64,000 nt of DNA, taken from NCBI RefSeq assembly GCF_034372165.1, contig NZ_CP139698.1, positions 1,240,001 to 1,304,000 on the forward strand, given 5' to 3'. The stretch is from Christiangramia sp. OXR-203 (GTDB lineage: Bacteria; Bacteroidota; Bacteroidia; Flavobacteriales; Flavobacteriaceae). The position numbers were made by a program, and so were the translations under genes. This document shows positions 2,189 through 20,210 of the stretch, one piece after another. The notes under the pieces were generated by a model. The model was not told the origin of the DNA. It saw only the letters and a program-made list of their open reading frames with translations, and ran no database searches. Position 1 is the first letter of the stretch. Every line of letters begins with the position of its first letter.

Positions 2189-3174
2189 ATAAAAAAGTTT
2201 CAAAGATAAGAATTGGGGTTTTAGGTACGGCAAATATAGCCCTTAGATCATTAATACCCGAAATCCAGAATTTACCGGATAATTATGAATTTGTAGGAAT
2301 CGGAACAAGAAATATTCATGAGGCGGAAAATGTCCATTCTACGAATTTTCAATTTTATGATGGTTATGATTCAATTCTTGATAAGGATATTCTAGACGCT
2401 GTATACATTCCTCTTCCCAACTCACTTCACTACCCTTGGGTGAGGAAGGCACTGGAAAAAGGGTTACATGTATTGGTGGAGAAATCATTGGCTTGTAAAT
2501 ATGAAGAGGTTAAAGAGCTTAATGAAATCGCGAAAGAATCTAATTTAGCCCTGGTGGAGAATTTCCAGTTCAGATTTCATTCCCAATTGTCGGAAGTCTT
2601 GAATATTATCGATAACGATCTCATTGGAAACCTTAGAATTATCAGAAGCACATTTTGTTTTCCACCTTTTCCAGATCCAGATAATATTCGCTATAAAAAA
2701 GAACTTGGAGGTGGTGCCTTGTTGGATGCGGGAGCTTATCCCATAAAACTATCTCAAATTTTATTGGGTTCTGAAATTTATGTTTCTTCTGCTAAAAGCA
2801 ATTCTAATAATAAATTTGATGTAGATATTTGGGGAGGGGGCATGATACAGCAAGAGAACGGTGACTTGTTTACGCAGATTGCTTTTGGTTTTGATAATTT
2901 TTATCAGTGTAACTTGGAGATTATTGGTTCTAAGGGTAAACTATATACTAATAGAATTTTTACAGCTAAGGAATCCTTCAAACCACAGATTATATTAGAA
3001 ACTCATACTGACGGGATTAGAACAATTGAATTAGAGTCTGATAACCATTTTGAGAATATGCTCATTCATTTCTATGAGTTAGCAAATGGAATTAAGGATA
3101 AAAATATTGAATATTCGCAAAATATTAATCAGGCCCGCTTATTGGATGAATTTAAAATTAGGTCGAATGAATAA
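2185..3174 (+). CDS. dTDP-3,4-diketo-2,6-dideoxyhexose 3-ketoreductase (Gfo/Idh/MocA family)
   Basis: This is an NAD(P)-dependent Gfo/Idh/MocA oxidoreductase of 329 residues. An N-terminal Rossmann segment reads GVLGTANIA at residues 11-19. A VEKS motif sits at 98-101, where most family members have EKP, and GGGALLDAGAYPI follows in the C-terminal domain, as in NDP-hexose 3-ketoreductases such as TylCII/KijD10. 2,3-dehydratase products are unstable and need immediate C3 reduction, and this gene overlaps the dehydratase by 4 bases, so the role as its partner is well supported. The stereochemistry at C3 cannot be read from the sequence. Confidence 0.9.
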   Translation: MNKKVSKIRIGVLGTANIALRSLIPEIQNLPDNYEFVGIGTRNIHEAENVHSTNFQFYDGYDSILDKDILDAVYIPLPNSLHYPWVRKALEKGLHVLVEKSLACKYEEVKELNEIAKESNLALVENFQFRFHSQLSEVLNIIDNDLIGNLRIIRSTFCFPPFPDPDNIRYKKELGGGALLDAGAYPIKLSQILLGSEIYVSSAKSNSNNKFDVDIWGGGMIQQENGDLFTQIAFGFDNFYQCNLEIIGSKGKLYTNRIFTAKESFKPQIILETHTDGIRTIELESDNHFENMLIHFYELANGIKDKNIEYSQNINQARLLDEFKIRSNE

Positions 3175-4267: not shown

Positions 4268-4269
4268 GC

Positions 4270-5004
4270 ATGAAAAGGATACTGGTTATTATAGATAATC
4301 TTCAGCAATATGAAAGGATCCAATCTTTAATTGATAAGGAAAATAGAACAAATTTAAATTTTGATTTTTATCATAGCAATATTCCTACTGCTATTTGGGA
4401 GCATGCAGATTTCAAAAATCAAAATAAAATTTTAGATGTAAACCAAAAGACTGATTGGATATTGGATAATTATCATATGGTTGTATCGGTTCATTGTTAT
4501 CAATTCTTTCCTGCTAAATTAGTTAATGGAGTTCGTTGTGTTAATATTCATCCTGGATATAATCCAGTGAATCGTGGTTGGTATCCTCAGGTATTTGCAA
4601 TTATCAAAGACCTTCAGATAGGAGCAACAATTCACGAAATGGATGAAAAATTAGATAATGGTCCCATTATATCCCGGAAATTTGTGAAGAAATTTTCGTG
4701 GGATACTTCTCTTACTCTATATAATCGTGTTTTAAATGCTGAAATGGAATTATTGGAAGAAAATTTTGATTGCATATTCGATGGCACTTGCTCAACTGAA
4801 AAACCAGAGGCTGGAGGTAATTTCTTTTCAAAGCGTGACTTTAATGAATTGTTGGAAATTGATTTGAATGAGACTGATTCTTATAGAAATATCATAAACA
4901 GACTTCGAGCTTTAACCCATGGTAGCTATAAAAATCTATATTATACTGATACAGAAACGGGTAAAAAGGTTTTCGTTAATTTATCTTTAACTCCCGAGGA
5001 TTAA
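4270..5004 (+). CDS. dTDP-4-amino-sugar N-formyltransferase (VioF/WlaRD-like)
   Basis: This is a 244-residue sugar N-formyltransferase that would use N10-formyltetrahydrofolate to formylate the 4-amino group made by the preceding enzyme. The formyl-transfer triad is visible: N92 and H94 in VNIHPGYNPVNRGWYPQVF and D129 in IHEMDEKLDNGP. The HPG-NP-NRGWYPQVF signature is that of dTDP-4-amino-4,6-dideoxyglucose formyltransferases (VioF, WlaRD) and not of methionyl-tRNA formyltransferase. It starts 2 bases after the aminotransferase stop. With the upstream 2,3-dehydratase, the predicted product is a dTDP-4-formamido-2,4,6-trideoxyhexose. Confidence 0.92.
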   Translation: MKRILVIIDNLQQYERIQSLIDKENRTNLNFDFYHSNIPTAIWEHADFKNQNKILDVNQKTDWILDNYHMVVSVHCYQFFPAKLVNGVRCVNIHPGYNPVNRGWYPQVFAIIKDLQIGATIHEMDEKLDNGPIISRKFVKKFSWDTSLTLYNRVLNAEMELLEENFDCIFDGTCSTEKPEAGGNFFSKRDFNELLEIDLNETDSYRNIINRLRALTHGSYKNLYYTDTETGKKVFVNLSLTPED

Positions 5005-5005
5005 A

Positions 5006-5857
5006 ATGAAAAAAATTAAGGTTTCTGCTTGTATTATTACGTATAATCACGAGAAATTCATAGAAGATTGTTTGGAAGCGGCCATTAGTCAGAAGCTGGA
5101 TTTTGATTATGAAATAATTATTGGCGAAGATAAATCTACAGATAACACGTTAGCTATTTGCAAAGAGTATGAACGTAAATATCCTCAACTTATAAGGGTC
5201 ATCGAGCGAGATCAAAATCTAGGAATGGTTGGGAATTGGTTATCAACCTTAGAAGAATGCGATGGGGATTACATTGCACTCTGTGAAGGAGATGATTTTT
5301 GGACGGACAGACATAAATTGGAGAAGCAGGTGAATATACTTTTGAGAAATAAGGATTATACAATTTGTGGGTCTAAAGTGCAAAGTTTAAATGAGTCTAA
5401 GGTTCAAAAAGAAAGTGAAGGTAAAGCTTATGGAGAAATCAATTTAGATCAGGTTTTAAGAAAAAATCAATTTACTACCTGCACGGCTGTAATAAAAAAA
5501 TCAGCATTAGATCTACCACCATGGCAAAATTTCAATAATTTTTTCACTGTAGATTGGCCAATATGGTGCAGTTTATTGCGATATGGAAAAGGATTTAATT
5601 TAGAGAGTGTGACTGCTCAATATAATATCCATGGAGCGGGGGCAACTTCTGGTAGGGATAGAGTTAACACTTTAAAAAATAAGCTAGAAGACAGAATCCT
5701 TATGATGGAAAATTTTCCAAATAAGAAAGATATCATTAAAAGGTATGGACTGAAAATTATTTTCCATTACACGTGGAAATCTTTATTAGGTAGAAAGGCT
5801 TTTTACAATGCGCTTTTGAAAAATAAGAAATTAGTAAAGTCTTATATTTTAAAGTAA
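5006..5857 (+). CDS. Glycosyltransferase family 2
   Basis: A GT-A fold family 2 glycosyltransferase of 283 residues. The N-terminal strand reads VSACIITYNHEKF, followed by GEDKSTDNT near residue 40 and the metal-binding EGDDFW at 94-99. It starts 1 base after the formyltransferase, so it is a good candidate to transfer the formamido-trideoxyhexose or the next sugar of the repeat unit. There are no membrane segments. Donor and acceptor cannot be told from the sequence. Confidence 0.9.
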   Translation: MKKIKVSACIITYNHEKFIEDCLEAAISQKLDFDYEIIIGEDKSTDNTLAICKEYERKYPQLIRVIERDQNLGMVGNWLSTLEECDGDYIALCEGDDFWTDRHKLEKQVNILLRNKDYTICGSKVQSLNESKVQKESEGKAYGEINLDQVLRKNQFTTCTAVIKKSALDLPPWQNFNNFFTVDWPIWCSLLRYGKGFNLESVTAQYNIHGAGATSGRDRVNTLKNKLEDRILMMENFPNKKDIIKRYGLKIIFHYTWKSLLGRKAFYNALLKNKKLVKSYILK

Positions 5858-5906
5858 ATCCCAGTTACTGGTCCTAAGGGGATTAGAATTAATTTAAAAC
5901 AAACTT

Positions 5907-6722
5907 ATGAAACCGGATGTTGGAGTAGTAATTGTGACCTACAATCGCATAAATCTGCTTAAGATCACTTTATGCAAGGTGCTGGCACAAACTTTCCCCA
6001 ATATGGAAGTTCTAGTAGTGGATAATTGTTCTACTGATGGCACTGAGGATTTTTTAAATTCATTGGATAATGTTTCTATTTTACCCTTACCGGAAAATCT
6101 GGGTCCTGCAGGTGGATTCCATGAAGGTATCAAGCATTTTGCTGAAAAATCTAATGTTGAATATGTTTGGCTAATGGATGATGATTTCTTCCCCTTTGAA
6201 TCCTGTCTTGAAAACTTACTAACCATTGCAAATAATAATACTATGGTTTTTCCATATATAAGAGAAAAAGATTTTATATCCAGAAGAGACCCTGGATGGT
6301 GGGGTGTTCTTATTCCAATTTCAATTATAAAGAAAGTAGGTTATCCAATGAAAGAATTGTTCTTCTGGACGGAAGATTCTGAATACCTTCTGCATAGAAT
6401 TAGAGCAAAATATAAATATAAAGCTGAGTGGGTACCTGCGGCGAAAGGAGTACACTTTACCAAGCGAGAGACAAATCATCGTCCACCCTGGAAATTTTAT
6501 TACGAAACTAGAAATATGCTCTATATGCGTTTGTATGAGAGGGATATTACCATACAAAGATCATCAAAACTGGTTAAAAGTTGGGTGAAACTATTGGGTA
6601 GCATTCTTTTAAAGGAAAATAACAAAATTGAAAAGTTAAAAATGTTTTTCCGTGGAACCAAAGACGGAATTCAGCAAAAACTTGGGAAAAAAGTAGATCC
6701 TATTACAGGACTGTATTCTTAA
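5907..6722 (+). CDS. Glycosyltransferase family 2 (GlfT2/rhamnosyltransferase-like)
   Basis: A 271-residue GT-A glycosyltransferase. It begins VGVVIVTYNR, has VVDNCSTDGT near residue 37 and NLGPAGGFHEG near 64, and the DxD-type metal site WLMDDDFFP at 88-96. The NLGxxGGF signature and the later FFWTEDSEYLLHRI segment are common to the GlfT2/rhamnosyltransferase subgroup, which often uses deoxy or furanose sugars. It follows the previous glycosyltransferase after 49 bases. Donor specificity is unknown. Confidence 0.88.
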   Translation: MKPDVGVVIVTYNRINLLKITLCKVLAQTFPNMEVLVVDNCSTDGTEDFLNSLDNVSILPLPENLGPAGGFHEGIKHFAEKSNVEYVWLMDDDFFPFESCLENLLTIANNNTMVFPYIREKDFISRRDPGWWGVLIPISIIKKVGYPMKELFFWTEDSEYLLHRIRAKYKYKAEWVPAAKGVHFTKRETNHRPPWKFYYETRNMLYMRLYERDITIQRSSKLVKSWVKLLGSILLKENNKIEKLKMFFRGTKDGIQQKLGKKVDPITGLYS

Positions 6723-8799: not shown

Positions 8800-9816
8800 A
8801 TGTTCGATTTAACTGGTAAATCTATTTTAATAACCGGCGGAACAGGTTCCTTAGGAAAAGCCTTAACTGCTCATATTCTTAACAAACATTCAAATCTCAA
8901 AAAGCTAGTCATTTTTTCTCGTGATGAACAAAAACAATTTGAGATGGCACAGGATTATCCTGTTAATGAATACCCACAAGTAAGATTCTTTATAGGTGAT
9001 GTGCGAGACGAAGCTAGAGTAAAACGAGCATTAAAAGGCATCGATTATGTAATTCACGCAGCCGCAATGAAACATGTGCCCATTGCAGAATACAATCCCA
9101 TGGAATGCGTTAAGACCAATATAATGGGCGCTGAAAATATTATTAATGCATCTTTAGAAACCAGCGTTGAACGTGTAGTAGCACTTTCAACTGATAAAGC
9201 TGCTGCACCTATTAATTTATATGGTGCAACTAAATTGGCGTCTGATAAGTTATTTGTGGCGGCAAATAATATTACAGGATGGAATCCGATTAAATTTTCA
9301 GTGGTTCGGTATGGGAATGTAATGGGTTCCAATGGATCGGTGATCCCATTTTTCCTTAAAAAGAGGAATGAAGGGGTTTTACCAATTACTGATCCTACCA
9401 TGACCAGATTTAATATTTCCCTGCAAGGTGGGGTAGATATGGTGATGCATGCATTAGAACATGCATGGGGTGGTGAAATCTTTGTTCCGAAAATTCCTTC
9501 GTATAAAATTACTGATATCGCAGAAGCTATAGGTCCTAATTGTGAAAAACCTGTTGTAGGAATTCGGCCAGGGGAGAAAATTCACGAGGAAATGATAACC
9601 GATTCAGACTCTTACTATACTTACGATCTAGGTAAATATTATACTATACTACCTGCTACTCATAAATGGAAATTAGAGGAATTCATCGAAAAATTTGATG
9701 CGAGTAAAGTAGCGCCCGGGTTTCAATATAATTCTGGCGAAAATGATGAATGGGAATCTGTAGATAACCTTAGAGATTTAATTAAAGAACACGTAGATCC
9801 AACATTTGAAGTATAA
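8800..9816 (+). CDS. pseB: UDP-GlcNAc 4,6-dehydratase (inverting), pseudaminic acid step 1
   Basis: PseB converts UDP-GlcNAc to UDP-2-acetamido-2,6-dideoxy-beta-L-arabino-hexos-4-ulose. The 338-residue soluble protein has the Rossmann motif TGGTGSLG at 12-19, a STDKAAAPINLYGATK block with T131, D132 and K133 plus the SDR Y141/K145 pair, and RYGNVMGSNGSVIPFF downstream. It lacks the membrane domain of the PglF-type enzyme encoded at 40980. It is the first gene of the pse operon, and pseC starts 1 base after its stop. Confidence 0.96.
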   Translation: MFDLTGKSILITGGTGSLGKALTAHILNKHSNLKKLVIFSRDEQKQFEMAQDYPVNEYPQVRFFIGDVRDEARVKRALKGIDYVIHAAAMKHVPIAEYNPMECVKTNIMGAENIINASLETSVERVVALSTDKAAAPINLYGATKLASDKLFVAANNITGWNPIKFSVVRYGNVMGSNGSVIPFFLKKRNEGVLPITDPTMTRFNISLQGGVDMVMHALEHAWGGEIFVPKIPSYKITDIAEAIGPNCEKPVVGIRPGEKIHEEMITDSDSYYTYDLGKYYTILPATHKWKLEEFIEKFDASKVAPGFQYNSGENDEWESVDNLRDLIKEHVDPTFEV

Positions 9817-9817
9817 T

Positions 9818-11011
9818 ATGAATCATCCTATTCCATACGGCCGACAAAATATTACAGAAGAAGATATTGAAGTTGTAATTGAAACTCTAAAATCAGATTA
9901 TCTTACCCAAGGGCCTAGAATAGCTGAATTTGAAGAATCCTTTGCCGCTTATGTAGAAAGTAAATATGCAGTTGCGGTTTCTAATGGGACTGCAGCTCTT
10001 CATCTTTGTGCCATGTCTCTAAACATTCAAACAGGAGATAAAGTCATAACTACACCAATAACTTTTGCTGCCTCAGCAAATTGTATAAGATATTGTGGCG
10101 GCGAAGTAGTATTTGCAGATATAAATCCAGAAACATATTTACTGGATATAAATAATGTTAGGGATTTATTGGAAAGTGCCCCTAAAGGTACTTATAAAGG
10201 AATAATACCTGTCGATTTTGCCGGTAGAGCAGTTAATTTAGAGGGATTTAAGAAGCTTGCAAATGAGCATGATCTATGGATCATTGAAGATTCATGTCAT
10301 GCGCCTGGAGGGTTCTTTGTGGATTCCAAAGGAAATAAACAGTTATGTGGTAATGGGAAATTTGCCGATCTGGCTATCTTCTCCTTCCATCCGGTAAAAC
10401 ATATTGCCTGTGGAGAAGGTGGGATGATTACTACAAACGATAAGGATTTATATGAAAAACTTTTAAAATTACGAACTCATGGTATTACCAAGAATGAAGA
10501 TGCTTTCGAGAATTCTATAGAATTTGCAGGAGGTACTGCAGAGGACAACACTTTTCCAAACTGGTATATGGAAATGCAGGAATTGGGATACAATTATAGA
10601 TTAACCGATTTTCAGGCAGCACTCGGAAGCAGTCAGTTAAAACGTGCTGATGAGGGACTTGAGAAGCGTAGATTTCTGGCTGATAGATATAATAAAGCTT
10701 TTGCTGATAAAAATTTCATCAAAGGACAATCTGGTGTAATAGAGGGGCATGCATACCATTTATATGTTCTTGAAGTAATTGATAGACTTGGTTTATATAA
10801 CTACCTGAGAGAAAATAAAATTTTTGCGCAAATTCATTATATCCCTTGTCATTTAATGCCGTATTACCGTGATTTAGGTTGGAAAACAGGAGATTTGGCT
10901 AAATCTGAAGAATATTATCGAAATTGTATTAGTTTGCCTATGTATCCAACTCTAACAGAGAATGAACAGAATTTTGTGATAGATAAGATCAACAAGTTTT
11001 ATGAAGCTTAA
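9818..11011 (+). CDS. pseC: UDP-4-amino-4,6-dideoxy-N-acetyl-beta-L-altrosamine transaminase
   Basis: A PLP-dependent DegT-family aminotransferase of 397 residues that aminates C4 of the PseB product. The chosen ATG at 9818 lies 1 base past the pseB stop; an in-frame TTG at 9806 is inside pseB and is less likely. The PLP lysine is K194 in FSFHPVKHIACGEGG, with the cofactor aspartate D158 in IIEDSCHAPGG. The FHPVKHI context is characteristic of PseC. The aldo/keto reductase gene overlaps its end by 11 bases. Confidence 0.95.
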   Translation: MNHPIPYGRQNITEEDIEVVIETLKSDYLTQGPRIAEFEESFAAYVESKYAVAVSNGTAALHLCAMSLNIQTGDKVITTPITFAASANCIRYCGGEVVFADINPETYLLDINNVRDLLESAPKGTYKGIIPVDFAGRAVNLEGFKKLANEHDLWIIEDSCHAPGGFFVDSKGNKQLCGNGKFADLAIFSFHPVKHIACGEGGMITTNDKDLYEKLLKLRTHGITKNEDAFENSIEFAGGTAEDNTFPNWYMEMQELGYNYRLTDFQAALGSSQLKRADEGLEKRRFLADRYNKAFADKNFIKGQSGVIEGHAYHLYVLEVIDRLGLYNYLRENKIFAQIHYIPCHLMPYYRDLGWKTGDLAKSEEYYRNCISLPMYPTLTENEQNFVIDKINKFYEA

Positions 11012-11834
11012 TGAAAAGGTAGGTTTAGGAACAGTTCAATTTGGTTTGCCTTATGGCATTTCGAATAAAGCAGGTCAAACCGATTCTATAGAAGTTACAA
11101 AGATTTTAAAAACGGCTAAAACTTATAAAATCCAGGTTTTAGATTCGGCAAGCGCTTATGGGAATTCAGAGGATGTCTTGGGACAAAATGATTTGTCTTC
11201 CTTTAAAATGGTATCCAAATTTATGCCAGATAGTTTGGAAGATATTTCCGACCAACTCGAGACCAGCTTAGAAAAGCTTGGTATTCAAAAGTTGCATGGT
11301 TATCTTGCTCACCGTCCTTTAAATATATTAGAGAACCCAGCGCAATGGGACAAATTGCTAGAGTTCAAAAGTAAATCTAAAGTAGATAAGATTGGTTTTT
11401 CCTTAAATGAACCTATGGAGCTGGAACAATTAATTGATAAGGGTTATATCCCAGATCTCATTCAGGTTCCTTATAATTATTTTGACAGAAGGTTTGAACC
11501 TTATATAAAAGATCTCAAAAAAGAGGGTTGTGAAATTCATACAAGATCAGCTTTTTTACAAGGTTTATTTTTCATGAACCCAAATAGATTAGATGATTTC
11601 TTTGAAGAAGTAAAATTGCCTATAAGTCAGTTGCAGAAAAAAGAGTTTTTAAATGGAGCCCTCTTAAAATTTGCCGTACAACAACCATTTATTGACAGGG
11701 TAATTATTGGTGTTGAAACTAACAAGCAGCTTGTAGAAAACCTTACTAATTTAGAATTAGCTTCAATACTTCCAGAGTTGCAATATAAGATAAACGAGAA
11801 TATTTTAATTCCTTCACGATGGCCAAAAAATTAA
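11001..11834 (+). CDS. Aldo/keto reductase, pseudaminic-locus accessory
   Basis: A 277-residue NAD(P)H-dependent aldo/keto reductase. The catalytic tetrad is visible: D48 in VLDSASAYGNSE, Y53, K73 in MVSKFMP and H104 in YLAHRP. The C-terminal cofactor region contains RVIIGVETNKQL. It overlaps pseC and the next oxidoreductase gene, so translation is probably coupled. It is not needed for the standard six-step Pse pathway. A role in making a modified nonulosonate or its substituent is inferred from position only. Confidence 0.85.
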   Translation: MKLNEKVGLGTVQFGLPYGISNKAGQTDSIEVTKILKTAKTYKIQVLDSASAYGNSEDVLGQNDLSSFKMVSKFMPDSLEDISDQLETSLEKLGIQKLHGYLAHRPLNILENPAQWDKLLEFKSKSKVDKIGFSLNEPMELEQLIDKGYIPDLIQVPYNYFDRRFEPYIKDLKKEGCEIHTRSAFLQGLFFMNPNRLDDFFEEVKLPISQLQKKEFLNGALLKFAVQQPFIDRVIIGVETNKQLVENLTNLELASILPELQYKINENILIPSRWPKN

Positions 11835-12715
11835 AGTTAGGTGTTATTGGAATGAGTGAAGGGAACGGGCATCCCTACTCCTGGAGTGCTATTTTTAACG
11901 GCTATGGAGAAGAGGATATGCGAAAATGTCCATTTCCGGCTATACCAGAGTATCTTTCTAAGCAAAATTTTCCAGAGGATAGTTTGGGGGATTTCGGTGA
12001 AGTCACACATATATGGACTCAGGAGATTGCCACCTCAAAGCATATTGCAGCTGCTACTAATATTAAATACATAGTTGAAAATTTAGAAAACATGGTTGGT
12101 GCGGTAGATGCAGTTCTTCTGGCTAGGGATGATGCAGAAAATCATTACAGCATGGCACTTCCATTTTTGAAAGCTGGAATACCTATTTTTATCGATAAAC
12201 CTTTGGCTTTATCTGTATTTGAAGCTAACAAGATTTTAAATGAACAGCAATTTGAAGATCAGGTTTTTACCTGTTCTTCAATACGTTTTGCTGATGAATT
12301 AAAGTTAACCGAGAAGGAAAAGGACAGTATTGGGGAAATAGTTCATGTAGAAGCAGCTATTCCAAAAAAATGGGATACGTATGCCATACATTTAATAGAA
12401 CCGATTGTTTCCCGCCTTCCTGAGAGAGGTAAACTAATAGATGTTAATATCATTCAAAAAAAACATTTTATAAATTGTATGATTGAATGGGAAAATACTA
12501 CAGCCTATATTAAAGTTACTGGGGATACTTTGGTGCCTATTAAATTATCTTATTACGGATCGAAGGGGGTAATAGAAAAGGATTTCAAGGATTCTTTCGC
12601 ATGTTTCAAAAATTCTTTGAAAAAATTTGTGGATGTCCTAAGTGGAAAAGAAAAGAATATTCAAAGAGGAGAAACTTTGGAAATAATTCAAATTTTGGAA
12701 AAAGGTAGGATATGA
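11819..12715 (+). CDS. Gfo/Idh/MocA-family oxidoreductase, pseudaminic-locus accessory
   Basis: A 298-residue protein of the Gfo/Idh/MocA type. An N-terminal nucleotide-binding strand reads LKLGVIGMSEGNGH, which departs from the usual GxGxxA pattern because SEGNGH replaces the glycine loop. The family's EKP motif appears as IDKPLA from residue 125. The protein is shorter than usual (330-400). It overlaps its neighbours by 16 and 4 bases. The substrate is unknown. The changed glycine loop suggests unusual cofactor binding. Confidence 0.78.
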   Translation: MAKKLKLGVIGMSEGNGHPYSWSAIFNGYGEEDMRKCPFPAIPEYLSKQNFPEDSLGDFGEVTHIWTQEIATSKHIAAATNIKYIVENLENMVGAVDAVLLARDDAENHYSMALPFLKAGIPIFIDKPLALSVFEANKILNEQQFEDQVFTCSSIRFADELKLTEKEKDSIGEIVHVEAAIPKKWDTYAIHLIEPIVSRLPERGKLIDVNIIQKKHFINCMIEWENTTAYIKVTGDTLVPIKLSYYGSKGVIEKDFKDSFACFKNSLKKFVDVLSGKEKNIQRGETLEIIQILEKGRI

Positions 12716-13470
12716 AAAGTATTTTAATAACAGGGGGAAGTGGTAAAGTAGGATTTCAACTTGTAAAACACTTTTTGAATAATGGGTTTGAGGTAATAAC
12801 CACCTCTACTAATAGAGAACGTTTTTTAGATAAAAAACAACCTGAGTTATCAGGCTATGATCTGGATAATTTTAAAGTGATTGAGGTGGACTTTACAAAG
12901 GTCGATGCCTTGAATTTAATTAGAACATATATTCAATCTAATAAAATAATCTTAACGCATGTCATCCATAATGCACGATCACTTGGCTTCTTAAAATTAG
13001 AAGAAGATAAAACTATTTCTGCGGAGAATTTTTCGGGAGAATTATATATGGATGTTGTTTTTCCATATCGACTATCTATGGGATTAATTAATAATACGTC
13101 TCATAAACTTGAAAATATAATTTTCATCTCATCAATGTATGGAGTAGTGGCACCCACTCCATCTTTGTATGATAACTTCGAAGAATCGTCTGCAGTTCAT
13201 TACGGCGTTTCTAAAGCAGCCCAAATTCATTTAACTAAAGAACTGGCAGTTCGTTTAGCTCCTAAAATTAGAGTTAATTGCGTTAGTTTTGGAGGTATAA
13301 AAGGCAGAACAGATGAAAATTTTGAAAACCGCTATAAAAATTTAACGCCACTGCAAAGGATGCTAGAGGAAGAGGATGTAGTAGGACCGATTGATTTTCT
13401 GGTTTCTGATAATTCCACTAATATGACTGGGCAAAATATAAAAGTTGATGGAGGATGGACAATTTGGTAG
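12712..13470 (+). CDS. Short-chain dehydrogenase/reductase (PtmA-like), pseudaminic-locus accessory
   Basis: A classical SDR of 252 residues. The cofactor motif is TGGSGKVG at 7-14, catalytic serine is in FISSMYG (S140/S141), the YxxxK pair is Y164/K168 in VHYGVSKAA, and the C-terminus reads NMTGQNIKVDGGWTIW. It resembles PtmA-type SDRs that sit beside nonulosonate cytidylyltransferase genes. It overlaps pseF by 16 bases. Its reaction is unknown. Confidence 0.85.
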   Translation: MKSILITGGSGKVGFQLVKHFLNNGFEVITTSTNRERFLDKKQPELSGYDLDNFKVIEVDFTKVDALNLIRTYIQSNKIILTHVIHNARSLGFLKLEEDKTISAENFSGELYMDVVFPYRLSMGLINNTSHKLENIIFISSMYGVVAPTPSLYDNFEESSAVHYGVSKAAQIHLTKELAVRLAPKIRVNCVSFGGIKGRTDENFENRYKNLTPLQRMLEEEDVVGPIDFLVSDNSTNMTGQNIKVDGGWTIW

Positions 13471-14168
13471 ATCAAAAAATTATTGCAGTAATTCCTGCAA
13501 GAGGCGGTTCTAAAAGAATACCTAAAAAGAATATTATAGAAATTTGTGGAAAACCAATGCTAGCCTGGACAATAGAGGCTGCACTCCAATCTAAATATAT
13601 CGATGAGGTTTTATTGAGTACAGATGATGAAGAGATTGCAGAAGTAGGACGAAAATTTGGTGCTAAAGTACCATTTTTACGCGATACGAATGCAGATGAT
13701 CATTCTCCTATAAGTTTAGCAACGATTAGGGCGGTAAGCCAGTGGGAGGAAGGTGGACATGGAGAACCGGAGATTGTCATTCAATTAATGGCCAATTGTC
13801 CAATCCGGGATTCTGAAGATATTGATGCAGCGATTGAAAATTTTGTCGACAAAGGTATTCAGTACCAGATTAGCTGTTTTAAATATGGATGGATGAATCC
13901 TTGGTGGGCTCATAAATTAGAGTCCAAAGGAAAAGCCACTCCAGTGTTTAAAAATGAAGAAAGGATAAAAAGATCTCAGGATCAACCAGACCTTTACTGT
14001 CCTACCGGTGCAATTTGGATAGCAAATAGAGAGAGTCTTCTTCATGCAAACAGTTTTTATGGTCCAGAATACAGCTTTTATCCCATGCACTGGATAAAGG
14101 CTATAGATATAGATGAATATGAAGATTTAGAAATGGCAGAATATTTTTTGAAACTTCATGAAAAATAG
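13455..14168 (+). CDS. pseF: Pseudaminic acid cytidylyltransferase (CMP-Pse synthetase)
   Basis: PseF activates pseudaminic acid with CTP to CMP-Pse. The 237-residue protein has the acylneuraminate cytidylyltransferase signature IPARGGSKRIPKKN at residues 13-26, then LSTDDEEIAEVG and QLMANCPIRDSEDID, and ends with a HWIKAIDIDEYEDLEMAE segment typical of PseF. It overlaps the SDR by 16 bases and pseG by 11, as expected for one operon. PseF is preferred over a Leg or Neu synthetase because of the flanking pse genes. Confidence 0.93.
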   Translation: MDNLVDQKIIAVIPARGGSKRIPKKNIIEICGKPMLAWTIEAALQSKYIDEVLLSTDDEEIAEVGRKFGAKVPFLRDTNADDHSPISLATIRAVSQWEEGGHGEPEIVIQLMANCPIRDSEDIDAAIENFVDKGIQYQISCFKYGWMNPWWAHKLESKGKATPVFKNEERIKRSQDQPDLYCPTGAIWIANRESLLHANSFYGPEYSFYPMHWIKAIDIDEYEDLEMAEYFLKLHEK

Positions 14169-15153
14169 GGTATATATAAGAGCTGATGGAAACCCAAAGA
14201 TTGGATTGGGACATATTGTAAGATGCCATGCATTAGCAAAAATGCTAGAAGGTTCCTTTGATGTATCATTCGTAACTAAATCCATTCCAACTGATATTGA
14301 AGCCACTTTTATTACCGAAGGTTTTTCAGTAATTAGAATCGCAAAAGAAGCTGAGTTTTTCAATCTTCTCACAGGTGATGAAATTGTAGTACTGGATCAT
14401 TACGATTTGGATTCTACTTATCAGAAAAGAATTAAAAAAGCTGGTAGCAAATTGGTCTGTATAGACGATTTGCATGATAAAGAATTTTATGCTGATTTAA
14501 TAATAAATCATTCACCAGGAATTACTCCAGATAATTATCTAGCACAACCATACACGAAATTTGCTTTAGGCCCGGCATATGCTTTACTACGGCCAGCCTT
14601 TCTTCAAGCTACTAGAATTGAAAAAAAAATTGAACAAGTTAAACATGTATTAATTTGTTTTGGAGGTTCAGATTTTAAAAATCTTACAAAATCTGTTTTG
14701 GAAGTAATTGCTGAAAATGTTTTGGTAAAAACGATTACGGTAATATTAGGTTCTGCCTATATTCACCGGGAATCATTAAAGGATGTGAGGCAGAAGAACC
14801 CGAATATTAATATTTTGTCTTCATTGAGTGAGAAAGAAATGCTTTATGAAATAAGAAAAGCCGATCTTGCCATAATACCATCTAGTGGTATATTACTGGA
14901 GGTGCTTGCAGGAGGTGCAATTCCTTTAATTTGCTATTATGCAGAAAATCAAAAAAAATTATTTGATTATTTCGAGTGTAGAGATCTCTTGCCGACGTTT
15001 GAGGCTGGCAAATTTGACGGAAATGAATTAAGTACTGTTATTGCAGACATTCAAAACAATAAGATTAAATTAGATGAAATACCATTTCGTAAGGAAATCA
15101 GAAATGCTGCTGATAACAATTTAAAAAAAATTAAAAATTTGGTCGATGAGTGA
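14158..15153 (+). CDS. pseG: UDP-2,4-diacetamido-2,4,6-trideoxy-beta-L-altropyranose hydrolase
   Basis: PseG removes UDP from the altrose derivative before condensation with phosphoenolpyruvate. The 331-residue GT-B-like protein has the N-terminal signature RADGNPKIGLGHIVRCHAL, where H19 is the likely catalytic histidine, then DHYDLD near residue 79, CFGGSDFKN near 168 and an IIPSSGILLEVLAGG segment near the C-terminus. It has no acetyltransferase fusion; the acetyltransferase is the next gene, overlapping by 8 bases. Confidence 0.94.
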   Translation: MKNRVYIRADGNPKIGLGHIVRCHALAKMLEGSFDVSFVTKSIPTDIEATFITEGFSVIRIAKEAEFFNLLTGDEIVVLDHYDLDSTYQKRIKKAGSKLVCIDDLHDKEFYADLIINHSPGITPDNYLAQPYTKFALGPAYALLRPAFLQATRIEKKIEQVKHVLICFGGSDFKNLTKSVLEVIAENVLVKTITVILGSAYIHRESLKDVRQKNPNINILSSLSEKEMLYEIRKADLAIIPSSGILLEVLAGGAIPLICYYAENQKKLFDYFECRDLLPTFEAGKFDGNELSTVIADIQNNKIKLDEIPFRKEIRNAADNNLKKIKNLVDE

Positions 15154-15697
15154 TGTTAATTTTATTGAAATAAATGAAGGAGATCTTGAAACAATTAGAA
15201 AGTGGAGAAATTCTTCTGAGGTAGGCAAATATATGTACACCGATAATGTAATATCTTCAGATCAGCAAAAGAACTGGTTCGAAAAAATTTCTTTAGAAGA
15301 AAATAGCAGATATTGGATGATTGAATATCAGGGGAAAAAACTTGGATTGGTATATATTATTGATATTGATACTTATAACAGCAAATGCTATTGGGGCTTT
15401 TACCTTGGAGATACATCTATAAGGGGTGAAGGTATAGGAAAAAAAGTAGAATTTAAACTGCTTAATTATGTATTTGATGACTTAGAGTTGAATAAACTCT
15501 GTGGAGAAGTATTAAATTTTAATAAAAGAGTTCTGGAAATGCATTCTAAATTTGGTTTCAAGGAGGAGGGGCTCTTAAGGCAGCATGTCAAAAAAAATAG
15601 TGAATTTATAGATGTTACCACAATTGGACTTCTGAAAGATGAATGGAAAGATATTAAAGATGATATCTATCATAAGATTTATAGACCAATTTTATAG
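15146..15697 (+). CDS. pseH: UDP-4-amino-4,6-dideoxy-N-acetyl-altrosamine N-acetyltransferase
   Basis: A GNAT acetyltransferase of 183 residues with PseH character: an IRKWRNSSEVGKYMYTDN segment near residue 18, a GxGIGKKVEFKLL acetyl-CoA loop near 95, and a C-terminal HSKFGFKEEGLLRQHV motif. In the standard pathway it acetylates the 4-amino group made by PseC. A second GNAT lies two genes on (16137), so either could do this step. PseH is assigned here because of adjacency to pseG and the better overall pattern. Confidence 0.85.
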   Translation: MSDVNFIEINEGDLETIRKWRNSSEVGKYMYTDNVISSDQQKNWFEKISLEENSRYWMIEYQGKKLGLVYIIDIDTYNSKCYWGFYLGDTSIRGEGIGKKVEFKLLNYVFDDLELNKLCGEVLNFNKRVLEMHSKFGFKEEGLLRQHVKKNSEFIDVTTIGLLKDEWKDIKDDIYHKIYRPIL

Positions 15698-15712
15698 ATT
15701 AAAATTAGTAAT

Positions 15713-16120
15713 ATGAAATTTAAATTAGGAGATAAAGCTTGTTTATCTAAAAAATTTTCAGAACGTGACGTTTTAAATTTTTCATCTACCTCGGGGGATG
15801 AAAATCCTATCCATTTTGATGAGGATTATGCCGCAAGAAGTAGGTTTGGACAGAGAATTGTTCAAGGCCCTATGGTGACTTCACTAATTGGAGGAATCCT
15901 AGGCAGTAAAATTCCTGGACCGGGAACCATTTATTTGAGCCAGGAGACTTCTTTTAAGCAAGCTGTATTTATAGATCAGGAAGTAACGGCATGGGCGGAG
16001 ATAATTAATATCAGAGAGGATAAACCAATCATAACCTTGAGAACATGGGTAGAGAATGATAAGAATGATGTTGTGATAGATGGTAAGGCTGTGGTCTTTT
16101 TTTTAGAGAAAATTGATTAA
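15713..16120 (+). CDS. MaoC-like (R)-specific enoyl-CoA hydratase domain protein
   Basis: A single hot-dog domain of 135 residues with the hydratase-2 motif SGDENPIHFD, giving the catalytic D29, N31 and H34, and a YAARSRFGQRIVQGPM segment after it. Members hydrate enoyl-CoA to (R)-3-hydroxyacyl-CoA. A hydratase is not part of the core Pse pathway. Because it sits between two GNAT acyltransferase genes, it may supply a 3-hydroxyacyl (for example 3-hydroxybutyryl) group for an N-acyl substituent. That role is inference from position. Confidence 0.85.
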   Translation: MKFKLGDKACLSKKFSERDVLNFSSTSGDENPIHFDEDYAARSRFGQRIVQGPMVTSLIGGILGSKIPGPGTIYLSQETSFKQAVFIDQEVTAWAEIINIREDKPIITLRTWVENDKNDVVIDGKAVVFFLEKID

Positions 16121-16136
16121 AATGTAGAATTAGTAA

Positions 16137-16571
16137 ATGGTGCAAAATTTGAGACCAATAAAGGATGAGGATTGTACTTTGTTATTTAAATGGGCTAACG
16201 ACGAGGATGTCCGAGAAAACTCGCTAGATAGCCGAAAAATAAAATGGAAGCAGCACAAATCCTGGTTTAATCAAAAACTTACTAGTTCTTTTTCTAAAAT
16301 CTTTATACTTGAATACAATGATTTACCTGTAGGTCAAATTCGATATGACTTAAACGCTAACGGAATTTGGGATATAGATTATTCAATTGATAAAAATTAT
16401 AGAGGCCTAGGTTTCGGTAGGAAGATGGTTGAACTTAGTTTACATAAAATTACCGGCGAAAAAAGAGCAGTGGTGCAATCAAACAATATTGCTTCCCGTA
16501 AAGTTTTTGAACACTTGGGGTTTGAAATTAGTAAAAGTGATGATGAAATAATTGAATACCTTTATAAATGA
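16137..16571 (+). CDS. Second GNAT N-acyltransferase of the pse operon
   Basis: A small GNAT protein of 144 residues. The acetyl-CoA loop is YRGLGFGRKMVELSL near residue 88, followed by NNIASRKVFEHLGFE, and the N-terminus has a KWANDEDVRENSLDSRKI segment like the acyltransferase domains often fused to or found beside PseG. It overlaps the next gene by 4 bases. It may add the alternative acyl group implied by the MaoC gene, or it may be the true PseH. Confidence 0.82.
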   Translation: MVQNLRPIKDEDCTLLFKWANDEDVRENSLDSRKIKWKQHKSWFNQKLTSSFSKIFILEYNDLPVGQIRYDLNANGIWDIDYSIDKNYRGLGFGRKMVELSLHKITGEKRAVVQSNNIASRKVFEHLGFEISKSDDEIIEYLYK

Positions 16572-17248
16572 AAAATTTTATTGTTCTTTCTGAAAAAAAC
16601 TGGCATAAAGAAATTTACTATAAACTCATAACTAATTTTCCTGACTTTAACTGGACTTTAATTGATGATAAAAATAACTTTTCTTACGAAGAGTTAAAAA
16701 AAATAAATCCTGAAAAAATTTTTATTCCGCATTGGTCCTATATTATTCCGGCTAAAATCTTTGAAAATTTTGAATGTGTAGTCTTTCATATGACCGATCT
16801 GCCTTATGGAAGAGGTGGAAGTCCTCTTCAGAATTTAATAATTAAAGGGCATACTCATACAAAAATTTCTGCCCTAAGGGTGGAAGAAGGCCTTGATACA
16901 GGTCCTGTATACTTGAAAAAGGATTTGCAATTATTAGGTACTGCTCAGGAAATCTTTTTAAGGACTACCACGATAGTGGAAAAAATGATTAATGAAATTA
17001 TAGAGAGAGATTTAATTCCAAAGAAACAGGATGGAGAAATAGTGGAATTCAAACGACGTAAGCCCGAGCAGGGCGATATTAGCAAACTTCAAGAAATTTT
17101 GGAAATTTATGACCATATAAGAATGCTTGATTGTGATGGTTATCCTCTAGCATTCATAGAATCAGAAAATTTTCGTTTTGAATTTTCACGAGCTTCTTTG
17201 AAATCCAAAAAAGAAATAATAGCAGATGTTAGAATCATTAAGAAATAA
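16568..17248 (+). CDS. Methionyl-tRNA formyltransferase-like protein of nonulosonate loci
   Basis: A 226-residue formyltransferase-fold protein. The core reads VVFHMTDLPYGRGGSPLQNLI from residue 71, and EEGLDTGPVYLKK from 106 holds the expected aspartate D110. H74 matches the catalytic histidine. The triad asparagine normally two residues before it is a valine (V72) here, as in the divergent formyltransferase-like proteins found in pseudaminic acid clusters. It could formylate an amino group of the Pse precursor. It overlaps the PIG-L deacetylase gene by 23 bases, which suggests the two work together. Confidence 0.83.
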   Translation: MKNFIVLSEKNWHKEIYYKLITNFPDFNWTLIDDKNNFSYEELKKINPEKIFIPHWSYIIPAKIFENFECVVFHMTDLPYGRGGSPLQNLIIKGHTHTKISALRVEEGLDTGPVYLKKDLQLLGTAQEIFLRTTTIVEKMINEIIERDLIPKKQDGEIVEFKRRKPEQGDISKLQEILEIYDHIRMLDCDGYPLAFIESENFRFEFSRASLKSKKEIIADVRIIKK

Positions 17249-17936
17249 AAGAATATTAGTTTTTGTTGCACATCCCGATGACGAATTATTAGGTGTTGGA
17301 GCAACAATGCATAAGCTAATTCATGAGTATGATTGCAAAGTAAGAGCAGTTATTTTAGGGGAAGGGATTACTTCAAGATCTGATAGTAGAGATGCCGCTA
17401 AGTGGTCGGATGAGTTGAAAATTCATAGGGATAATATTGAGAGTGCGCGTTCTGCTATAGGTTATGAATCAGTAGGGATATACGATTTTCCGGATAATAG
17501 ATTTGATACGGTGGCTTTATTGGATATAATTAAAGTGGTTGAGAAAGAAAAAACAGCTTTCCAGCCTGAAATTGTATTTACCCATCATTTGGGAGATGTA
17601 AATATTGATCATCAAAGAACTTTTGAGGCTGTATTAACAGCAATAAGACCTCTTAAAGAAGAAAAAGTTCATACACTAATTTCTTTTGAGACACCTTCAG
17701 GTACTGAATGGAGAGCACCTACAGATCCAAAGCATTTTGTGCCAAATATGTTTATTGAAGTCTCCAAGAGTAATCTGGAAGCCAAAATAAAAGGAATGGA
17801 GAGCTACGAATTTGAAAAAAGGAAATACCCTCATCCCAGATCACCTGAAGCTCTAAAAATTCTGGCTCAACGCTGGGGTATAGTTGCGGGTAAAGAATTT
17901 GCCGAAGCTTTTTCCATTGTGAGATTAATTAATTAA
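17226..17936 (+). CDS. PIG-L/LmbE family N-deacetylase
   Basis: A zinc-dependent N-deacetylase of 236 residues with the family motif AHPDDE at 15-20 (zinc ligands H16 and D19) and a third ligand in HHLGDVNIDHQ (H129). Such enzymes remove N-acetyl groups from sugars or sugar conjugates. Next to a formyltransferase-like gene and an extra GNAT, it may strip an acetamido group of the Pse intermediate so another acyl group can be installed. That order of events is inferred. It has no signal peptide, so it is cytoplasmic. Confidence 0.88.
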   Translation: MLESLRNKRILVFVAHPDDELLGVGATMHKLIHEYDCKVRAVILGEGITSRSDSRDAAKWSDELKIHRDNIESARSAIGYESVGIYDFPDNRFDTVALLDIIKVVEKEKTAFQPEIVFTHHLGDVNIDHQRTFEAVLTAIRPLKEEKVHTLISFETPSGTEWRAPTDPKHFVPNMFIEVSKSNLEAKIKGMESYEFEKRKYPHPRSPEALKILAQRWGIVAGKEFAEAFSIVRLIN

Positions 17937-17984
17937 AACAATTAGATTTTATTTTTTTAAATAGTTCTGATAATAAAATACCAT

Positions 17985-19025
17985 ATGAAAATTAAAAATT
18001 TTAATATCGATCATAAAAGTCCTGTATTCATTATAGCAGAACTTTCTGCTAATCATAATGGTAGTCTTAATACGGCTATAGAAACTATAAGGGCTGCAAA
18101 AAGGGCAGGTGCAGATGCTATTAAACTTCAGACATATACCGCAGATACAATGACCCTTGATGTGCATAAACCAGATTTCATGTTAAGCCAGGGGACTATT
18201 TGGGATGGTAAATATCTCCACGATCTTTATAAAGAGGCTTATACACCCTGGGAATGGCACAAGCGTTTGTTTGAAGTTGCTGAGGAAGAAGATTTAATTT
18301 GCTTTTCCTCACCATTCGATTCTACGGCAGTAGAATTGCTTGAAGAACTGAATGTGCCAGCCTACAAAATAGCGTCCTTTGAAATAACAGATATTCCATT
18401 AATAGAACTTGTAGCTTCAAAAGGAAAACCGGTTATTATATCCACAGGTATAGCAGATTCTAAAGATATCGAGTTGGCTTTGGATGCCTGTAAAAGAAGG
18501 GGAAATGACCAGATAATACTTTTAAAATGTACCTCATCCTACCCTGCTCCTATAGAAGAAGCCAATATGATTATGGTAAAAGATCTCGCTCAGCGGTATA
18601 ATGTCCTTTCTGGTTTGTCTGACCATACAATGGGGTCTACTGTCCCTATTGTTTCTACAGTGATGGGAGCTAAAGTAATTGAAAAGCACTTTATATTAGA
18701 TAAAAGCATTGGGGGTCCTGATGCTTCTTTTTCCATGGATGAAAAAGAATTTACAGAAATGGTGAAAGGTGTTAGAGAAGCTGAAAAGGCAATAGGTAAG
18801 GTAGATTATAGTTTAACAGAGAAACAGAAAAAAGGTAGGGAATTTTCTCGTTCCCTTTATGTCGCTGAGGATATTGCCAAAGGCGAAAAAATAACTGAAA
18901 AAAATATAAGAGCGATAAGACCTGGGTACGGATTACATCCGAAGTATTATAGTGACATTCTTGGGAAATCAGTTATGGAAGATCTTGAAAAAGGAACAGC
19001 ATTATCATTAAATCATTTCGCTTAG
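17985..19025 (+). CDS. pseI: Pseudaminic acid synthase
   Basis: PseI condenses the free 2,4-diacetamido-trideoxy-altrose with phosphoenolpyruvate to give pseudaminic acid. The 346-residue protein has the NeuB-type barrel with FIIAELSANHNGS near residue 15, AIKLQTYTADTMT near 46, LSGLSDHTMGS near 210 and EKHFILDKSIGGPDASFSMD near 228. A C-terminal SAF antifreeze-like domain (about 285-345) carries SLYVAEDIAKGEKIT and IRPGYGLHPKY. The QTYTADTMT and GPDASFS patterns favour PseI over NeuB or LegI. Confidence 0.95.
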   Translation: MKIKNFNIDHKSPVFIIAELSANHNGSLNTAIETIRAAKRAGADAIKLQTYTADTMTLDVHKPDFMLSQGTIWDGKYLHDLYKEAYTPWEWHKRLFEVAEEEDLICFSSPFDSTAVELLEELNVPAYKIASFEITDIPLIELVASKGKPVIISTGIADSKDIELALDACKRRGNDQIILLKCTSSYPAPIEEANMIMVKDLAQRYNVLSGLSDHTMGSTVPIVSTVMGAKVIEKHFILDKSIGGPDASFSMDEKEFTEMVKGVREAEKAIGKVDYSLTEKQKKGREFSRSLYVAEDIAKGEKITEKNIRAIRPGYGLHPKYYSDILGKSVMEDLEKGTALSLNHFA

Positions 19026-19034
19026 AATTATCAT

Positions 19035-20210
19035 ATGAAAGTTATATTTTTCTCTCCAAATATTTTAAGAGACGCTCATAAACAAATTTTTCAATTAGAT
19101 CGACTTGTTAAAGAGGGATTTGATGTTGTTATGCTTGATGCTACAAGATTCTATGGAAATAAATCGACAGCTACAGAAGAGATTATATTAAATAACAAAA
19201 TTGAATGTTCTACCGAAGAAGATTTTTATAACTTTAAGCAAAGCTTAGGTAAAGACCCAGTATTGTACGTGGCATTTGATCAGTATATGAATTTTGCGGC
19301 TCCTATACTTCGAATTCTAGTAAGGAAACAAGATAAGGTTCTTTCGTATCATACAAAGAGATTTTCTACAGCTCAATTTCCTACTAATAAGCTTAGGATT
19401 ATATTTGATAAGGTTGTTAAGAAAGCGGATAAAATGTTACCTCTTCATCTCTTTGCACCCATTTATAGATGGAAATATAAGATTTTCATCCCAGATTATT
19501 ATTTATGTAGTACTAATTACGTAATTCCAACGAAAGCTTATTTAACTATCAAAAAGGATAATAGAATTGTTGTGCATGCAGATGATATAAATAATATTAT
19601 TAAAGAAAAATCTTCAACTTTTTCAGAAGGTTTGAAAATTGGAGTATTCTTGGATCAGGTATTACCATTTCAGGATCGATTACATCCCAAGATAACTCCT
19701 CCAATTCCACATGAATACATAGAATTGTACTATAAGAATTTAGAAAAAACTTTGTGGAAACTTAAAGAGGAATTGCATCTTGATAAAGTAATTATCGCAC
19801 TTCATCCTGATGCAGTTAAATTGGAGCAGGAACTAGCAGATAAATTCAAAGGATTTGATACTAGGATAGGAGCTACTAATGAACTTATAAAGAATGCTGA
19901 GATAGTATTTGGGCATAGTAGTACAGCTCTAGGATTTGCAGTTTTTTACAGAAAACCGGTAATTTTATTTAAAGATGAATTTCTGATGAAAGATTTTGAT
20001 CTGATTCAAAAATTCACATCGTTCTTCGAAAATGCATTAGGATTCAAACAAATTTATATGGATAAAACCTTTAAGTTGCCAGAAAAACCTTTTCAAATCG
20101 ATGAGGCAAAGTATGATGATTACATTCATAAGTTTTTAAAAGATAATACTATTCAGGAAAATTCATATTATTATGCAATAAACAAGATCAAAAGCGATTT
20201 GAATACCTAA
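19035..20210 (+). CDS. Candidate nonulosonate (pseudaminyl) glycosyltransferase, family not recognised
   Basis: I do not recognise a named family. The 391-residue soluble protein looks like a GT-B enzyme. Its C-terminal half has ALHPDA at 255-260 and, about 35 residues on, FGHSSTALG at 292-300 followed by FYRKPVILFKDE. An HP motif followed by an S-S/T motif is the pattern shared by bacterial sialyltransferase families that use CMP-activated donors. It starts 9 bases after pseI and is the last gene of the operon, where a CMP-Pse transferase would be expected. The usual D/E-D/E-G motif is not clear, so the assignment is tentative. Confidence 0.55.
   Translation: MKVIFFSPNILRDAHKQIFQLDRLVKEGFDVVMLDATRFYGNKSTATEEIILNNKIECSTEEDFYNFKQSLGKDPVLYVAFDQYMNFAAPILRILVRKQDKVLSYHTKRFSTAQFPTNKLRIIFDKVVKKADKMLPLHLFAPIYRWKYKIFIPDYYLCSTNYVIPTKAYLTIKKDNRIVVHADDINNIIKEKSSTFSEGLKIGVFLDQVLPFQDRLHPKITPPIPHEYIELYYKNLEKTLWKLKEELHLDKVIIALHPDAVKLEQELADKFKGFDTRIGATNELIKNAEIVFGHSSTALGFAVFYRKPVILFKDEFLMKDFDLIQKFTSFFENALGFKQIYMDKTFKLPEKPFQIDEAKYDDYIHKFLKDNTIQENSYYYAINKIKSDLNT

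Follow-up and report, generated by a model that had tools for sequence, protein, structure and literature searches.

The window studied here is a stretch of 64,000 nucleotides from Christiangramia sp. OXR-203 (Bacteroidota), which covers positions 1240001-1304000 of a one-contig genome of 3.395 Mb. Positions 8800-20210 of the window contain an operon for the biosynthesis of pseudaminic acid (Pse). A sequence-only reading had proposed that four genes lying between pseH and pseI (here called MaoC, GNAT2, FMT and PIG-L) act together to remodel an N-acyl group of the sugar before condensation. The genes that it listed are present as open reading frames in their places and match the families it had named, as judged by NCBIfam and Pfam scans. 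The content of the locus is as follows:

8800..9816, + strand: PseB, UDP-GlcNAc 4,6-dehydratase (inverting); TIGR03589 505.9 bits, over the NCBIfam cut-off.
9806..11011, + strand: PseC, aminotransferase; TIGR03588 444.1 bits, over the NCBIfam cut-off.
11001..11834, + strand: aldo/keto reductase (AKR), a candidate reductase for 8-epimerisation; PF00248 65.5 bits.
11819..12715, + strand: Gfo/Idh/MocA oxidoreductase; PF01408 46.7 bits.
12712..13470, + strand: short-chain dehydrogenase/reductase (SDR) family oxidoreductase, a candidate C8-OH oxidase and partner of the AKR; PF13561 82.5 bits.
13455..14168, + strand: PseF-like CMP-sugar synthetase; TIGR03584 167.8 bits, below the cut-off of 205.7; also PF02348.
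14158..15153, + strand: PseG, UDP-sugar hydrolase; TIGR03590 198.9 bits, over the NCBIfam cut-off.
15146..15697, + strand: PseH-family GNAT beside MaoC, predicted to transfer acetyl or 3-hydroxybutyryl; TIGR03585 149.8 bits, over the cut-off.
15713..16120, + strand: MaoC, PhaJ-like (R)-enoyl-CoA hydratase; PF01575 58.5 bits, over the cut-off; 1iq6 E 2.3e-29.
16137..16571, + strand: GNAT2, kin of PseG-fused GNATs and probable N7 acetyltransferase; PF13302 49.8 bits, over the Pfam cut-off.
16568..17248, + strand: FMT, formyltransferase superfamily, 1ZGH type; PF00551 34.0 bits (cut-off 26.1), PF21553 84 bits, over the Pfam cut-off; 1zgh profile E 1.1e-92.
17226..17936, + strand: PIG-L, predicted PIG-L/LmbE-type N-deacetylase; PF02585 74.6 bits, over the Pfam cut-off.
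17985..19025, + strand: PseI, pseudaminic acid synthase, with Ala310; TIGR03586 516.5 bits, over the NCBIfam cut-off.
19035..20210, + strand: protein directly 3' of pseI, possibly a glycosyltransferase, a guess from position only; 84% identical to its L026 counterpart, with no match in Pfam (E<=0.01) or NCBIfam (E<=0.001).

All six families of the CMP-pseudaminic acid pathway (PseB, PseC, PseH, PseG, PseI and PseF) are thus matched, in agreement with the earlier prediction of one enzyme per step; PseF alone falls below its NCBIfam cut-off, although it is the best NCBIfam match of the gene at 13455-14168. The window differs from the standard pathway in this low score and in seven extra genes that lie outside the route to the diacetylated sugar Pse5Ac7Ac: AKR, Gfo/Idh, SDR, MaoC, GNAT2, FMT and PIG-L. 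The sequence-only reading had recognized the last four as dispensable for Pse5Ac7Ac and had overlooked the first three, which sit between pseC and pseF. One other species of the genus (genome G006, locus L026) has a matching gene order with proteins that are 73-96% identical, which argues that the operon is no chance array. A Pse operon with MaoC, GNAT2, FMT and PIG-L between pseH and pseI is therefore real.

The presence of the six core families would also be expected if the product were ordinary Pse5Ac7Ac, with the extra genes silent or condition-specific. We consider this very unlikely, as the seven extra genes are all open, lie in one gene run and are 73-91% identical to their counterparts in G006, and as motifs are kept in MaoC, PIG-L, AKR and SDR. 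The closest solved structure to MaoC is the (R)-specific enoyl-CoA hydratase 1iq6, matched over residues 3-128; D29 and H34 align with the Asp and His of that PhaJ-type hydratase, a pair that we take to be catalytic. MaoC shares with 1iq6 the short domain and this pair, and differs in its sugar-operon setting beside PseH. PIG-L carries AHPDDE and HxxDH-type motifs, presumably metal motifs; A15-H-P-D-D-E20 (with H16, D18 and D19) and H120, H121, D124, N126, D128 and H129 are invariant in 7 sequences. In the AKR, residues D48, Y53, K73 and H104, which we assume to form the catalytic tetrad, are invariant in 13 AKRs of such loci, and S141, Y164 and K168 of the SDR (putative catalytic residues) are invariant in 7.

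Gene overlaps had been taken as a sign of coupled action at two junctions, GNAT2/FMT (4 bases) and FMT/PIG-L (23 bases). Both lengths are correct. The shorter overlap is not special, because seven other junctions, from pseB to pseH, also overlap, by 4-16 bases (first listed start codons). The 23-base overlap, with an ATG start, is also found in L026, L028, L052, L025, L040 and L039, loci that span the genus, family and phylum of the window and include Fodinibius roseus (L025; Balneolota according to NCBI). The overlap is 4 nucleotides long in L034, L046 and L047, and in L027 and L029 PseI lies between FMT and PIG-L, joined in L027 by PseH. As judged from sequence, the six core families are present and PIG-L is coupled to FMT by an overlap kept in relatives.

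The association between FMT and PIG-L was examined by scoring 42 loci in six frames. Sixteen had PIG-L (>=180 bits) and 26 did not, the latter comprising 22 loci from a PseI search and four plasmid loci. Loci with a score of 142 bits or more were counted as FMT loci: 15 in the 42-locus table, plus the phage contigs L048-L051. FMT is infrequent, with 5 occurrences in 395 genomes of the phylum, 4 in 24 genomes of the genus and 3 in 299 genomes of the family (the window genome is counted each time). PIG-L accompanied FMT in 15 of 19 FMT loci, and the four misses were the near-identical phage contigs. All 15 FMT loci of the table fall within the 16 PIG-L loci; they consist of 12 cellular loci, L053 with a more distant synthase, and the viral contigs L046 and L047. 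The sixteenth PIG-L locus, Mariluticola plasmid L078, has a divergent formyltransferase-like gene (PF00551 24.8 bits, cut-off 26.1). These counts compare FMT-bearing and FMT-free loci drawn by different searches. In a sample drawn by PseI, 24 genomes of the family had PseI over the cut-off; FMT was found in two (G000 and G702), both with PIG-L, and no PIG-L was detected around the other 22 PseI genes, where the best match (32 bits, L067) is not Pfam PIG-L; the stretches of L059, L070 and L075 are short.

FMT and PIG-L lie together among pse genes in the phylum of the window, in Fodinibius roseus and in a Synechococcus plasmid (L034). Their tree distances agree with each other (r 0.74, n=15) and with those of PseI (FMT 0.91 and PIG-L 0.84, n=12 each), and none of 2000 permutations reached any of these values. 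Agreement with PseB was lower: 0.40 for FMT and 0.51 for PIG-L, values reached in 155 and 91 of 2000 permutations.

The synthase itself shows a trace of the association. Of the 89 PseI columns that are fixed, with one exception at most, in the 26 sequences from PIG-L-free loci, the one that departs most often in PIG-L loci is position 310: the PIG-L-free loci have Ser (25) or Thr (1), and the PIG-L loci have Ser in 5 of 14 and Ala, Val, Ile or Arg in the others. The next-ranking columns depart in 6 of 14 PIG-L loci. A permutation test, which ignores relatedness, reached the observed departure in 2 of 2000 trials. The count uses the highest-scoring PseI of each locus, provided that it exceeds 430 bits, and omits L039, L040, L046, L047, L053, L078, L109 and L112-L114; among these, L112-L114 have Leu, L109 and L053 have Phe, L078 has a Thr of unsure reading, and L047 gave nothing readable. 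Locus L027 has two PseI copies (11534-12571 and 15774-16814), one with Ser and the other with Ala at 310; the Ser copy was counted. Ser is also the residue at the aligned position of 8h2c, a solved pseudaminic acid synthase. R312, the second residue after position 310, is aligned with R314 of meningococcal NeuB, a residue that presumably contacts the N-acetyl group of N-acetylmannosamine; the NeuB chains 4ipj and 4ipi differ at the place aligned to R312, according to the alignment match line. Position 310 may set acyl specificity.

The chemistry of FMT and the nitrogen that it serves admit more than one explanation. Among solved chains, FMT is nearest to 1zgh, which is labelled as a methionyl-tRNA formyltransferase, and formylation would be the likeliest reaction. 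His74 and Asp110 are invariant in 7 sequences. The Asn position of the N-x-H motif is, however, V, I, C or M in 15 FMT-type proteins, and the catalytic triad of sugar N-formyltransferases of family PF00551 is, we assume, Asn-x-His plus Asp; with the Asn replaced, the chemistry may differ from ordinary transfer from 10-formyl-tetrahydrofolate. PseJ (6ci2/6ci4), which we take to be the formyltransferase of a Pse pathway, was considered as an identity for FMT and discarded: a profile search gave no match at E<=1e-3. PseJ has a weak match (28 bits) in L025, to the second formyltransferase there, and the window FMT differs from PseJ in being of the 1ZGH type, with PF21553, and in going with PIG-L.

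One possibility is that FMT, in the way of PseJ, acts on the 4-amine that PseC makes and so formylates N7, and that PIG-L removes a wrong or alternative N7 acetyl or yields a free amine. Such a product has a precedent in the polysaccharide of Pseudoalteromonas distincta, described as containing 5-acetamido-7-formamido Pse (PMC3210612), and classical formyltransferases do occupy the place of PseH in five Pse loci (L054, L055, L056, L060 and L066), four of which lack a GNAT. In L060 (10330-12219), PseG is fused to a classical formyltransferase, a counterpart of the common PseG-GNAT fusion. None of these five loci has PIG-L, which agrees with the expectation of direct N7 formylation there and sets them apart from the window. 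Besides, a second acyltransferase (a GNAT, a PseG::GNAT fusion or a second formyltransferase) is present in 13 of 13 cellular FMT loci, so that FMT need not serve N7; four of them (L025, L039, L040 and L041) have a second formyltransferase. Fusion of FMT to PseG was found in none of 15 FMT loci, and GNAT-PseG fusions occur in nine loci of 42. Together with the failure of FMT to match PseJ, these observations make N7 formylation by FMT improbable. The model used for formyltransferases other than FMT merges two motif types, N-I-H-G-S-L-L-P in the five loci without PIG-L and H-E-S-[DA]-L-P in the four with a second formyltransferase. Locus L061 combines a GNAT with a weak formyltransferase match (77 bits) and lacks PIG-L.

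The simplest reading of the gene content would be that PIG-L and FMT serve the C2 nitrogen of UDP-GlcNAc, which is already acetylated on arrival and becomes N5. The N5 acyl of pseudaminic acid is inherited from UDP-GlcNAc, and the standard enzymes therefore cannot change it. Our leading proposal, which carries about half of our confidence, is that the operon makes a variant of CMP-pseudaminic acid whose N5 acyl is exchanged by PIG-L and FMT. After PseC, and probably after the N7 acyltransferase, PIG-L would remove the acetyl derived from UDP-GlcNAc (hexose C2-N, the future N5); FMT would formylate the freed amine; and PseI would condense the altered hexose with phosphoenolpyruvate. N7 would be acylated separately, by GNAT2 (acetyl) and/or by PseH with 3-hydroxyacyl-CoA from the PhaJ-like MaoC, and AKR and SDR, with Gfo/Idh, may epimerise C8. 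The product is likely to belong to a family of 5-N-formyl Pse with acetyl or 3-hydroxybutyryl at N7, possibly as the 8-epimer; any exact structure is less certain than the exchange itself. If true, the PIG-L/FMT pair would account for variation at a site beyond the reach of the standard pathway.

Variants that carry N-formyl or N-hydroxybutyryl groups at C5 or C7 have been reported (PMC6388019, PMC6137143, PMC9037385). The case most similar to our proposal, likened by description and not by sequence, is the 5-N-formyl-legionaminic acid of Halorubrum sp. PV6, where a predicted formyltransferase gene lies near the synthase gene (PMC6137143). That system differs in belonging to the legionaminic series, in a formyltransferase PCR product of 953 bp, and in that no deacetylase is named in the sections of the report that describe it. 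In the open full-text literature (subscription papers mostly lie outside this scope), nothing joined nonulosonic with LmbE or pseudaminic with PIG-L deacetylase, and no paper paired PseJ and formyltransferase; among the open papers that bring together pseudaminic biosynthesis and an N-acyl deacetylase, none was on this subject, as judged by title.

The proposal that the N-acyl group is remodelled before condensation gains support in its deacetylase/formyltransferase part, from the locus comparison and from PseI position 310; the idea of one four-gene set is not supported. A comparison of Pse loci with and without the four genes had been proposed as a check, and it separates them: FMT and PIG-L associate, and MaoC and GNAT2 behave as separate modules across loci, and a single acyl-remodelling set was rejected for this reason. 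MaoC is present in 4 of 42 loci (window, L026, L057 and L074) and adjoins PseH in the first three, one of which (L057) lacks FMT and PIG-L. When 40 GNAT domains were placed in a tree, GNAT2 fell among GNATs most of which are fused to PseG (support 0.82-0.90); it scores 126 bits against the GNAT domain of PseG::GNAT in L052, and 45 bits against TIGR03585 (PseH), under the cut-off of 93. GNAT2 is, on this basis, probably an ordinary N7 acetyltransferase. PIG-L, in turn, occurs without FMT, as described below.

The PseH of the window groups in the same tree (support 0.91) with GNATs of L027, L057 and Sinorhizobium meliloti Rm41 (L076), and the PseH-MaoC pair perhaps transfers 3-hydroxybutyryl. 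Calling PseH a 3-hydroxybutyryltransferase from its clade alone was rejected, as its TIGR03585 score also makes it an ordinary PseH. A review gives the capsular polysaccharide of Rm41 as N5-hydroxybutyryl, N7-acetyl Pse (PMC9037385). The Rm41 locus, with one PseH-like GNAT of the window-PseH clade, lacks MaoC and PIG-L, and a PIG-L relative (132 bits) lies elsewhere on the Rm41 plasmid. If the review is right, N5 exchange takes place there without PIG-L in the locus, which neither decides the nitrogen served by the window PseH nor favors our proposal. It also lends some plausibility to another scheme, in which GNAT2, or PseH with MaoC, re-acylates N5 with 3-hydroxybutyryl and FMT acts at N7 or elsewhere. 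The adjacency of GNAT2, FMT and PIG-L in the window, L026, L028 (where GNAT2 is within a fusion) and L034 is compatible with that scheme. However, MaoC is missing from 13 of 15 FMT loci, and several of the PseG-fused GNATs in the clade of GNAT2 come from PIG-L-free loci, so that we grant the scheme a small probability.

PIG-L was found by profile (E<=1e-40) in 28 of 395 genomes of the phylum, 23 of them without FMT at the threshold of the FMT search. Hence, PIG-L does not need FMT, and a strictly reciprocal relationship between the two was discarded. Loci were fetched for 18 of the 23 genomes (G261, G063, G378, G091 and G435 were left out). Eight of the loci have a PseI-like synthase (L106, L107 and L109-L114), nine lack a recognized PseI (L115-L123), and L108 is a 3.8-kb contig; in L109 the synthase is found without PseB or PseC. 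Pfam was run on ten selected neighbors. Four of the eight loci with synthase have a different candidate for the transfer of an acyl or carbamoyl group, or a ligase: a GNAT_9 protein in L106 (26.0 bits, cut-off 25), a carbamoyltransferase in L107, a hexapeptide acyltransferase in L110, and an ATP-grasp protein near PIG-L in L111, together with a phosphoesterase. The PIG-Ls of FMT-free loci nest among FMT-linked ones (tree support 0.89-0.93). This nesting fits one deacetylase with changing partners, and does so more weakly where a partner is unseen.

An attractive speculation, which we find possible and yet rather doubtful, is that Pse loci of several phyla share a swappable N5 module made of PIG-L and an interchangeable partner (a 1ZGH-type formyltransferase, a GNAT, a hexapeptide acyltransferase, a carbamoyltransferase or an ATP-grasp ligase) that acts before PseI. 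The window product would then be 5-N-formyl, 7-N-(3-hydroxybutyryl or acetyl), 8-epi-Pse, and the FMT lacking the Asn would have an altered catalytic center. If true, PIG-L with an exchangeable acyl partner would supply the missing N5-exchange step, and N5 chemistry would become predictable from gene content.

Several observations weigh against N5 exchange by PIG-L and FMT, in addition to the missing Asn, the Ser310 kept in five PIG-L loci, the disregard of relatedness in the permutation, and the many genomes that have PIG-L without FMT. The distances of PseI and PseB agree only moderately with each other (0.54, reached in 144 of 2000 permutations), and the closer agreement of FMT and PIG-L with PseI may for that reason partly reflect neighborhood. 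No PIG-L match was obtained in L030-L033, which have weaker formyltransferase relatives. In the stretches examined, core pse genes are missing from L039 and PseI from L040. FMT stands alone, without PIG-L, on the near-identical phage contigs L048-L051 (231 bits), where no pse genes were recognized. With Pfam run on selected neighbors, a clear acyl partner for PIG-L is not seen in L109 or L112-L114: the neighbors include an amidohydrolase in L109, an EpaA-like fusion and an SDR in L112, and a methyltransferase and WbqC in L113, with a hexapeptide-aminotransferase further on. No GNAT was found in L078, L107, L109 or L112-L114. With four loci lacking a clear partner and six lacking a GNAT, the acyl-exchange scheme does not cover all loci. 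Lastly, the window has three acyltransferases for two nitrogens, a surplus that the scheme does not account for.

A further difficulty, the viral contig L046, where FMT and PIG-L are adjacent (1906-3296) and no pse genes were recognized in the stretch examined, would be readily understood if the pair deacetylated and formylated a GlcNAc-type residue of the same polysaccharide, unrelated to Pse. The same can be said of L122 and L123, which have a formyltransferase-like gene near PIG-L and no recognized PseI. The region of the window does hold another amino-sugar pathway (3-5857), with a nucleotidyltransferase, an NDP-hexose 2,3-dehydratase, a Gfo/Idh protein, an aminotransferase, a classical N-formyltransferase (PF00551+PF18216, 4270-5004) and a glycosyltransferase, which probably makes a formamido-deoxyhexose; with this enzyme at hand, other formylated sugars are probably made here. 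Nonetheless, that sugar already has its own formyltransferase, and FMT and PIG-L sit among pse genes in the phylum of the window, L025 and L034, with distances that track PseI over PseB. We therefore regard action on a GlcNAc-type residue as unlikely.

Two observations on phage and viral contigs can be added. In L048, the FMT-family gene (5884-6588) stands directly before a ribonucleotide-reductase-like gene, named by eye. In the viral contig L047, FMT adjoins PIG-L (3567-4885), and PseB-like and NeuB-like genes are also there.

The genes between pseC and pseF resemble a known system. In Acinetobacter baumannii, EpaA (a cytidylyltransferase-AKR of 542 aa) and EpaB (an SDR) are described as converting Pse into 8-epi-Pse (PMC12053666), and in a Vibrio Pse cluster a dehydrogenase gene is reported to come after a fusion of this kind (PMC7371886). 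The window shares with EpaA/EpaB an AKR and an adh_short_C2 SDR in a Pse context; it differs in that its AKR is a separate protein of 277 aa with no fusion, its cytidylyltransferase is PseF-like, and a Gfo/Idh protein is added. Locus L112 has a fusion of 543 aa (CTP_transf_3 at 4-188, AKR at 236-523) with an SDR alongside, nearly the layout reported for EpaA/EpaB, the likeness being one of description. The window AKR is 29% identical to the AKR domain of the L112 fusion, and the SDR is 28% identical to the L112 SDR. No EpaA/EpaB was found among phages, plasmids and viral contigs. Epimerisation of C8 by AKR and SDR, with Gfo/Idh, is a possibility that we rate at about a third.

Other gene groups were detected in passing. 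SDR, metallophosphoesterase and ATP-grasp genes occur together in L069 (7228-9545) and L072 (10581-12931), and the latter two are near PIG-L in L111; the group is perhaps another Pse-modifying module. A second GNAT subfamily, GNATx, is found in L028, L057, L061, L063, L066, L069, L071 and L073, and also in L027. GNATx and PseG are nearly exclusive, with eight of nine GNATx loci lacking PseG in the stretch examined. When the whole genomes of these eight were searched with TIGR03590, five had no match at E<=0.001 and three had only partial matches of 21-25 bits. GNATx may replace PseG at the UDP-sugar hydrolase step or be the mark of a route without PseG.

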